From Xanthomonas sp. (lineage in GTDB: Bacteria; Pseudomonadota; Gammaproteobacteria; Xanthomonadales; Xanthomonadaceae), in the NCBI RefSeq assembly GCF_017163755.1, contig NZ_JAFIWC010000001.1:372001-436000 (forward strand): a DNA stretch of 64,000 nt, written 5' to 3'. This document shows, one piece after another, positions 13,851 to 15,985 of this stretch. How positions within the stretch are numbered: position 1 is the stretch's first letter; each line of letters starts with the position of its first letter. Made by a program: the position numbers and the translations under genes. The notes beneath the pieces were generated by a model that was given only the letters and a program-made list of their open reading frames with translations, made no database searches and was not told where the DNA came from.

Positions 13851-14642
13851 ATGTCAGCTAGCGCACCGTTGATCCATCCCACCGCCGTCGTCGATCCGGG
13901 CGCCGTGCTCGCCGCCGACGTGCGCGTCGGCGCCTTCACCCTGATCGGCGCGGAGGTGGAGATCGGCGCCGGCAGCGTGATCGGCCCGCACTGCAGCATC
14001 ACCGGCCCGACCCGGCTCGGCCGCGACAACCATCTGGTCGGCCATGTCGCGCTCGGCGGCGATCCGCAGGACAAGAAGTTCGCCGGCGAGCGCACCGAGC
14101 TGGTGATCGGCGACCGCAACGTGATCCGCGAGTTCGTCACCGTCAACCGCGGCACCGGCAACGGCGGCGGCGTCACCCGCGTCGGCAACGACAACTGGTT
14201 CCTGGCCTACACCCACGTCGCGCACGACTGCAGCGTCGGCGACCACTGCGTGTTCTCCAACAACACCACCCTGGCCGGCCACGTCGAAGTCGGCGACCAC
14301 GTGATCATCAGCGGCTTCGCCGGCGCGCACCAGTTCTGCCGCATCGGCGACCACGCCTTCCTCGGCATGGGCGCGCTGGTCAACGGCGACGTGCCGCCGT
14401 TCACCATGGTCGGCGGCAATTCGCTCGGCCGCCCGCGCGGCATCAACAGCGAAGGGCTGAAGCGCCGCGGCTTCGACAGCGAGCGCGTGGCCGCGATCAA
14501 GCGCGCCTACCGCGCGCTGTACGTGGCCGGGCTGCCGCTGGCCGAAGCCAAGCAGCAGCTGGCGCAGATCGCCGAAACCAGCGACGACGTGCGCGCGATG
14601 CTGGAGTTCATCGAGGCCGGCGAGCGGCCGTTGTTGCGATGA
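13851..14642 (+). CDS. lpxA: UDP-N-acetylglucosamine acyltransferase
   Basis: LpxA performs the first step of lipid A synthesis, transferring 3-hydroxyacyl from ACP to UDP-GlcNAc. The 263-aa product has about ten hexapeptide-repeat coils of a left-handed beta-helix followed by a C-terminal helical domain. [16 protein letters not shown] sequence ([14 protein letters not shown]) carries the catalytic His. The [16 protein letters not shown] loop ([15 protein letters not shown]) and the [15 protein letters not shown] segment are typical of LpxA. Its stop overlaps the lpxB ATG, so coupling has survived the repeat that now opens lpxB. Confidence 0.96.
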
Positions 14643-15985
14643 ACATCGGGACTCGGGACTCGGGACTCGGGACCCGGAGCAGCGTTTCATCGGACGGCTC
14701 CAACGGTTCCACGGAGCAGATTCAAGGCGGCAACGCGCCTTTCGAGTCCCGCGCTGCGAGTCCCGAGTCCCGAGTCCCGAGTCCCGGCGCAGCGAAGCTG
14801 CGCGTCGTCCTCATCGCCGGCGAGGCGTCCGGCGACCAGCTCGGCGCCGGGTTGATCGAGGCGCTGCGCGTGCGCTATCCCGAGGCGCAGTTCGCAGGCA
14901 TCGGCGGCGATGCGATGCGCAGCGCCGGCTGCCAGACCTGGTTCGACGCCAGCGAACTGGCGGTGATGGGACTGAGCGAAGTGCTGCGGCACCTGCCGCG
15001 GCTGCTGAAGCTGCGCCGCGCGTTCCGCGAGCGTGCGCTGGCCTGGCGGCCGGACATGGTCGTCGGCATCGATGCGCCGGACTTCAACCTGGGCGTGGAA
15101 CGCTGGTTCAAGCAACGCGGCATCCGCACCGTGCACTACGTCAGCCCCTCGGTCTGGGCCTGGCGCGAGAAGCGCGCGGCCAAGATCGGCGCCAGCGCCG
15201 ACCGGGTGCTGTGCCTGTTCCCGATGGAGCCGCCGATTTACGCCCGGCACGGCGTGGACGCGCGCTTCGTCGGCCATCCGATGGCCGATGCGATCTCCCT
15301 GCGCAACGACCGCGATGCCGCGCGCGCCGAGCTCGGGCTGCCGAGCGGCGCGACCGTGCTGGCGGTGCTGCCGGGCAGCCGGCTCGGTGAGATCGGCCGG
15401 CTCGGCGACACCTTCTTCGCCGCCGCCTGGCAGGTGCTGCAGCAGGTGCCGGGCGCGCACGTGGTGGTGCCGGCGGCCAACGCCGCCTGCAAGGCGCTGA
15501 TCGCCGAACAGCTCTCGCGCTCGGCGCTGCCGGTGGTGTATTCGCACCTGCTCGACGGCCAGGCGCGCACCGCGATGCTGGCGGCCGACGTGGTGTTGCT
15601 GGCGTCGGGCACCGCGACGCTGGAGGCGATGCTGGTGAAGCGGCCGATGGTGGTCGGCTACAAGGTGGCGCCGCTGACCTACCGCATCGTCAAGGCGCTG
15701 GGCCTGCTGAAAGTGGACCGCTACGCGCTGCCCAACATCCTCGCCGGGCACGACCTGGCGCCGGAACTGATGCAGGACGACTGCACCGCGGACACGCTGT
15801 CGGCCGCGATGCTGCACTGGCTGCGCGACCCGCAGGCGGTGGACGCGCTGCTGCCCGAATACGATCGGCTGCACCGGCTGCTGCGCCAGAACGCCTCGGA
15901 GCGCGCGGCCGATGCGGTGGCGGAGTTGCTTGGGAGCCGGGACTCGGGACTCGGGACTCGGGACCCGGAAGAAGCAACGGCATGA
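14639..15985 (+). CDS. lpxB: Lipid-A-disaccharide synthase with repeat-encoded N- and C-terminal extensions
   Basis: LpxB joins UDP-2,3-diacylglucosamine to lipid X to make the lipid A disaccharide. The conserved GT19 protein begins near residue 55 ([19 protein letters not shown]) and contains the usual blocks ([46 protein letters not shown]). The first 54 residues are encoded by an inverted pair of GGGACTC arrays (14644-14793), giving [10 protein letters not shown] and later ESRVPSP-type sequence. The final 16 residues (RDSGLGTRD) come from another array. No ATG, GTG or TTG lies in frame between 14639 and the conserved start, so the extension is probably translated unless a CTG is used. Both ends keep ATGA overlaps, with lpxA and rnhB. 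Confidence 0.93.
14644..14793. repeat. Inverted heptamer-array pair inside the 5' end of lpxB
   Basis: The left arm (14644-14675) reads GGGACTC units ending in a variant GGGACCC. The right arm (about 14740-14793) reads GAGTCCC units and ends CCCGGC. The about 65-base spacer shares GCGCCTTT immediately before the right arm with the pyrH-frr copy. The whole element is in frame with lpxB and contains no stop codon. Confidence 0.85.

Follow-up and report, generated by a model that had tools for sequence, protein, structure and literature searches.

When a repeat element stands between the start codon of a gene and the conserved core of its protein, is the element translated, or does translation begin beyond it? 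The question arises at lpxB in the window, by which we mean the whole 64,000-nt stretch of Xanthomonas DNA analysed here. A sequence-only reading of this DNA had proposed a repeat-encoded leader on LpxB, with the overlap of lpxB and lpxA retained. The locus is laid out as follows.

13851..14642, + strand: lpxA (NCBIfam TIGR01852/NF003657), its TGA at 14640-14642 overlapping the lpxB start
14639..14642, + strand: ATGA overlap, the lpxB ATG (14639-14641) sharing bases with the lpxA TGA
14639..14800, + strand: LpxB leader, 54 codons, consisting of a heptamer element and its flanks
14647..14680, + strand: left, G-rich arm of GGGACTC units with four GGG tracts
14681..14752, + strand: inter-arm spacer of 72 nt, open in the lpxB frame
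14753..14786, + strand: right, C-rich arm of GAGTCCC units, 94% complementary to the left arm
14798..14800, + strand: CTG at codon 54, the sole near-cognate start close to the core and a rival start
14801..15985, + strand: LpxB core, repeat-coded C-terminal tail and stop codon
15982..15985, + strand: ATGA, the rnhB start overlapping the lpxB stop
15935..16058, + strand: second element, with one arm (15935-15968) in the LpxB tail and the other (16025-16058) in the RnhB leader
15982-16059, + strand: RnhB leader, containing arm 16025-16058 of the second element
16643..16790, + strand: third element (rnhB-dnaE junction); the right arm, 16737-16790, is intergenic and serves as a non-coding comparison

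The start of LpxB in the window

From 14639, 448 codons are open in frame. Homology to LpxB sets in at residue 54 (PDB 5w8s), 56 (NCBIfam TIGR00215) or 57 (Pfam PF02684), and the TIGR00215 score of 358.6 bits over residues 56-430 passes the curated cut-off of 190.25. The sequence-only reading had held that the ATG at 14639, lying on the lpxA stop, is the only in-frame ATG, GTG or TTG ahead of the core, and that the codons in between are an inverted heptamer pair with its spacer and no stop. Both statements are confirmed with the core at codon 55 (14801): the next standard starts in frame (TTG 14852, GTG 14870, ATG 14915) are all within the core, and the two arms are 34 nt each. The remaining in-frame near-cognates ahead of the core are ATC 14645, ATT 14720 and CTG 14798; the CTG that had been placed near 14808 is not found there and is this last codon, 10 bases off.

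An open frame is weak ground for inferring translation. Among 20,000 mononucleotide shuffles of the window leader, 28.5% remain open, and about one in two heptamers has no stop in any of the six frames (72% when weighted to 65% GC); the open frame as proof of translation was therefore rejected. Arrays of GGGANT[C/G/T] contain zero stops in all six frames, because, in an array of heptamers, every frame runs through all seven of the circular triplets. As the open leader frame is thus unsurprising, the case must rest on comparison.

The element itself is one of many. The sequence GGGACTCGGGACTC, allowing at most one mismatch, has 35 matches in the 64-kb window against 0.03 expected, and three heptamer units at the same tolerance give 464 overlapping matches genome-wide and 0 for the reversed control. 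Another inverted heptamer element of the window (4335-4474) lies between, and outside, an amino acid kinase family gene (3580-4326) and a ribosome recycling factor gene (4546-5103). Assembly error is common in repeats, and the window comes from a 75-contig draft, so an assembly or sequencing artefact has to be considered; it is scarcely conceivable, since independent assemblies, complete chromosomes included, have the identical layout with their own units, and the frame is kept in all of them.

Conservation of frame and overlap

The comparison used a chosen sample of 140 loci, all with lpxA and lpxB, of which 122 are distinct by leader and core. It comprised the best 80 of 539 from a first scan, 19 further genomes of the window's genus, 40 stretches chosen from 292 matching family genomes, and the window. 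In a quick LpxB-core tree, Xanthomonas and Stenotrophomonas form a clade of 98 rows with support 97; support across the tree is partial and many forks are open. Row titles were kept as deposited. One contig titled Bacillus subtilis (L073) has a Stenotrophomonas-type lpxB locus and represents a mislabelled or contaminated record.

In this clade 25 different lengths, the shortest 18 nt and the longest 177 nt, separate the lpxA stop from the LpxB core, and the length is a multiple of three in 98 of 98 rows. Twenty-five distinct lengths require at least 24 length changes, and parsimony on the quick core tree counts 40, a figure that depends on that tree. If lengths varied freely, the frame would be retained in about one of three changes. 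ATGA is found in 97 of the 98 distinct loci, and the 3287 codons of the 88 distinct leaders hold no in-frame stop; the two other frames (3199 codons each) hold 35 and 26.

The rnhB-dnaE junction, in the same operon but with dnaE having its own ATG, served as a control. Of the 52 Xanthomonas-type rows, 7 lack a usable pair; in the other 45 the distances fall into the three frame classes as 17, 22 and 6, with 38 length changes. The count includes two odd rows, L149 (-180) and L009 (1046). This junction is not frame-limited, unlike lpxA-lpxB. The 24 rows outside the clade divide into 9 with an in-frame overlap start and 15 that are out of frame, each with a start of its own closer to the core. 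Within the clade the one exception to ATGA is L032, where the overlap is lost (ATAA), an alternative ATG lies at -60 and the leader is shortened. Loss of the overlap thus goes with shortening or loss of the leader, as L032 exemplifies.

These counts of frame, overlap and stops support the proposal of a repeat-encoded LpxB leader that keeps the lpxA-lpxB overlap. The same proposal had pointed to the lpxB 5' ends of other Xanthomonas, and there the relatives also bear leaders, built from their own heptamer units: GGGACTC in the window, GGGACCG in L090 and GGGAATC in the X. arboricola group. The leader at lpxB is peculiar neither to the window's strain nor to lpxB.

Other starts ahead of the core

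The overlap start is not everywhere the only candidate. It is the sole ATG, GTG or TTG before the core in 24 of the 97 ATGA loci (20 of the 52 Xanthomonas-type rows), and in the other 73 at least one more lies within the leader. Of 46 Stenotrophomonas rows, 28 have a TTG or GTG immediately ahead of the core, which makes secondary initiation possible in that group.

Could the element be untranslated and LpxB begin next to the core, on a non-standard codon like CTG 14798? A CTG stands in frame right before the core in 14 of the 20 rows of the window's genus, and in the passages of PMC4692102 drawn on here heptamer elements are mainly intergenic (89-93% in two Xanthomonas genomes). The same position, codon 54, is however CCN in 29 of 32 Xanthomonas sensu stricto and kin (CTG in 1 of 32), which would leave them without a start at that place. 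Such a reading also leaves the frame constraint unexplained, with 98 of 98 lengths divisible by three and no stops, and we consider it very improbable. A Shine-Dalgarno-like motif was found neither before the core nor before the ATGA in any of the 98 rows. Its lack before the core argues against a start there, and the missing motifs fit reinitiation at the overlap, though they do not prove it.

Selection on the leader and matching of its arms

If the frame is kept, is the peptide kept as well? Leader and core were compared within groups of equal leader length. In Xanthomonas, dN/dS was 0.63 in the leader versus 0.08 in the core (15 rows, 135 nt), 1.03 versus 0.22 (11 rows, 126 nt) and 0.86 versus 0.09 (5 rows, 120 nt); in Stenotrophomonas it was 0.165 versus 0.04 (21 rows, 105 nt) and 0.57 versus 0.07 (8 rows, 117 nt). 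Xanthomonas thus keeps the frame but leaves the peptide nearly free, and the leader of the S. maltophilia group is under constraint. The 105-nt Stenotrophomonas leader (L010-L029 and kin) contains no heptamers, is under purifying selection and is possibly a real functional extension. Some other Stenotrophomonas have leaders of only 6-10 residues (L075, L077, L078).

The arms of the element are also matched to each other. The RNA of the window leader is predicted to form a hairpin that begins 8 nt downstream of the lpxB start codon (MFE -138.1 kcal/mol over 221 nt, z -7.7), and in 46 of the 52 Xanthomonas-type leaders the predicted folding has a z below -2 against 60 shuffles each. The four G tracts of the left arm form a quadruplex-type pattern, a property of the sequence alone. 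Arms match their own partners better than arms dealt among species, with 25.3 versus 18.3 in the window's genus and 20.2 versus 16.4 in Xanthomonas sensu stricto and kin; no permutation in 10,000 reached the observed match in the window's genus, in the sister group or in both pooled, in a test of means that takes no account of relatedness among species. A rank test of whether the own arm is the best partner failed, the own arm being best or tied in 5 of 52 Xanthomonas-type rows.

Matched arms and better-than-shuffle folding, together with the constrained heptamer-free leader of Stenotrophomonas, could be taken to mean that the leader is translated and has a function, its peptide, hairpin or quadruplex-forming arm controlling the amount or activity of LpxB. 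The Xanthomonas dN/dS values speak against this, as do leader lengths that span 18 to 177 nt across the clade and the 6-10 residue leaders. Moreover, hairpin-like elements are found genome-wide, and six of the 52 Xanthomonas-type leaders show no unusual predicted fold. A functional leader is therefore unlikely. For the matching of the arms, template switching between them is favoured over selection for a hairpin, although both predict matched arms.

Coupling as the probable constraint

Judged from its evolution, the LpxB leader is very probably translated and, in Xanthomonas, very probably mostly tolerated. The account that we prefer, an overlap-coupled lpxB start with a heptamer element read as a tolerated 54-residue leader, is as a whole likely to be correct. 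Most likely, ribosomes terminating on lpxA reinitiate at the ATGA to translate lpxB (termination-reinitiation). The inverted heptamer element lies immediately downstream of this start codon, and a start beyond it would stand some 150 nt past the lpxA stop and end the coupling; the element would therefore be held in the lpxB frame and read as the leader. In pairs tested in E. coli and Haloferax, coupling was almost gone at gaps of about 20 nt, according to the passages of PMC10666635 drawn on here. Because the array is stop-free in every frame, the constraint would fall only on the spacer and on the total length, which must be a multiple of three, and the peptide itself would be mostly tolerated in Xanthomonas. 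In each species, the match between the arms would probably be maintained by the copying of one arm from the other in replication, and not by selection on an RNA hairpin. It is selection for coupling, we infer, that keeps the lpxB start in front of the element. Against the whole account, a hairpin 8 nt past the start codon could slow initiation.

Recurrence at other genes

The same arrangement is found one gene further on. At lpxB-rnhB, an in-frame ATGA, GTGA or TTGA overlap is present in 94 of 95 rows (3 of the 98 have no rnhB), and the 95th has CTGA with an ATG one codon on; the distances, with 30 length changes, are divisible by three in 95 of 95. An apparent frame break at this junction in L063 was discarded, as the distance is in frame when the first 110 residues serve as the anchor. 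In this draft locus the longest rnhB match is out of frame with the start of the gene, through either a frame change in rnhB or an assembly error.

In the window's own genome, 25 matches to the pattern of an ATGA followed by an array reduce to 21 rows, 11 of them preceded by a frame of 100 codons or more. At five of these 11 sites the ATGA opens into a long protein, namely LpxB and four proteins assigned by Pfam: a XerC-type recombinase, an ABC transporter ATPase, a NadD-type nucleotidyltransferase and a dihydrofolate reductase. The other six give frames of only 44-57 aa; an ATGA with an array is thus not always a start, a further point against the account. The gene names nadD, folA and xerC are assigned here from Pfam matches and upstream genes. 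Besides lpxB, the sites are:

L181, ORF 560-1540, reverse strand: XerC-type gene with a heptamer-coded leader at ATGA
L195, 1501-2334: NadD-type gene with a heptamer-coded leader at ATGA
L203, 916-1524, reverse strand: dihydrofolate reductase gene with a heptamer-coded leader at ATGA
L191, ORF 789-1541, reverse strand: LolD-like ATPase gene, a candidate, with its start at ATGAATGA followed by heptamers

The ABC transporter ATPase appears LolD-like by sequence and is unsure as a leader case, because its upstream frame has no Pfam match. The others recur across the genus: nadD is in frame at ATGA in 20 of 20 genomes, folA in 19 of 20 (with ATGA or GTGA as the start in all 19) and xerC, at ATGA, in 18 of 20. 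The exceptions (L243 for folA, L255 and L257 for xerC) have an ATG close to the core, 6 or 24 nt upstream of it. Together with L032 at lpxB they are natural escapes from the leader, through an alternative start nearer the core; that the frame can be abandoned in this way also counts against the account.

A heptamer array is also read inside a gene, that of valyl-tRNA synthetase (L179 1351-1875; L264-L283). A heptamer-coded stretch of 36-38 residues is present in 9 of 20 genomes and an ordinary stretch of 57 residues in 10; the search pattern missed the remaining one (L269).

Do these cases amount to a rule? We lean, by a small margin of belief, towards one in which overlap-coupled genes of xanthomonads trap intergenic heptamer elements in the downstream frame and leaders are released when a start arises beside the core, as by the new starts in L032, L255 and L257. 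If this is true, overlaps would be entry points through which essential enzymes (LpxB, RnhB, NadD, FolA and XerC) acquire new N-terminal peptides that change fast.

Relation to known systems and implications

Xanthomonas LpxB proteins with an N-terminal extension of this kind are already listed in databases. The repeats have a counterpart in the GGGANTN heptamers of Xanthomonas described as G-quadruplex-forming (Rehm et al., 2015; PMC4692102). In the passages of that paper drawn on here, as in the window, the repeats are tandem G-rich heptamers, often in convergent inverted pairs and with four units preferred; they also share their placement, just after the stop of the upstream gene when on the coding strand and just ahead of the following gene when on the opposite strand. 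Both window arms, of GGGACTC units, have the GGGANTN tandem form of at least 14 bp. The screen described there demands GGGAATC, a unit that occurs 0 times in the window element and is present at orthologous places in X. arboricola and kin, and the window element is thus a unit variant and not a strict member of the class. The same passages treat the repeats as mainly non-coding (7-11% intragenic), whereas here one is read as a leader, and they hold no discussion of heptamers translated as leaders of overlapping genes.

A second likeness is to the palindromic elements of Rickettsia (Ogata et al.), which the passages of PMC10969869 used here describe as palindromic repeats of about 150 bp lying in frame within unrelated housekeeping genes. 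The lpxB element is likewise in frame in its host gene. Rickettsia elements encode a conserved peptide, whereas the lpxB leader is barely conserved (dN/dS 0.63-1.03, with units that differ by species), and they insert within genes, whereas the lpxB element stands just behind an overlapping start. The third is termination-reinitiation coupling at ATGA overlaps (PMC6728339, PMC10666635). The 4-nt stop/start overlap of such pairs is found here too (97 of 98 loci), and by analogy dependence on the overlap would be expected; the parts of these two accounts drawn on mention no inserted repeat, whereas at lpxB a repeat appears to be trapped by the overlap.

Each of the three ingredients (repeat, coupling and in-frame element) is thus known, and in the open-licence literature we found no report of their combination, with heptamer repeats read as the leaders of genes that are coupled. 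The main text of a proteogenomic paper on X. euvesicatoria (PMC5559785), in the parts drawn on, has no mention of lpxB.

Dispersed inverted repeats, stop/start overlaps and in-frame elements may in this way be joined in one testable account of how new N-terminal peptides come to be on essential proteins. Start sites in Xanthomonas, and the counts of repeats taken as 'intergenic', need checking at gene overlaps. Where repeats of 7 nt vary in length within a frame that is held to multiples of three, this variation would provide a natural gauge of selection on coupling.
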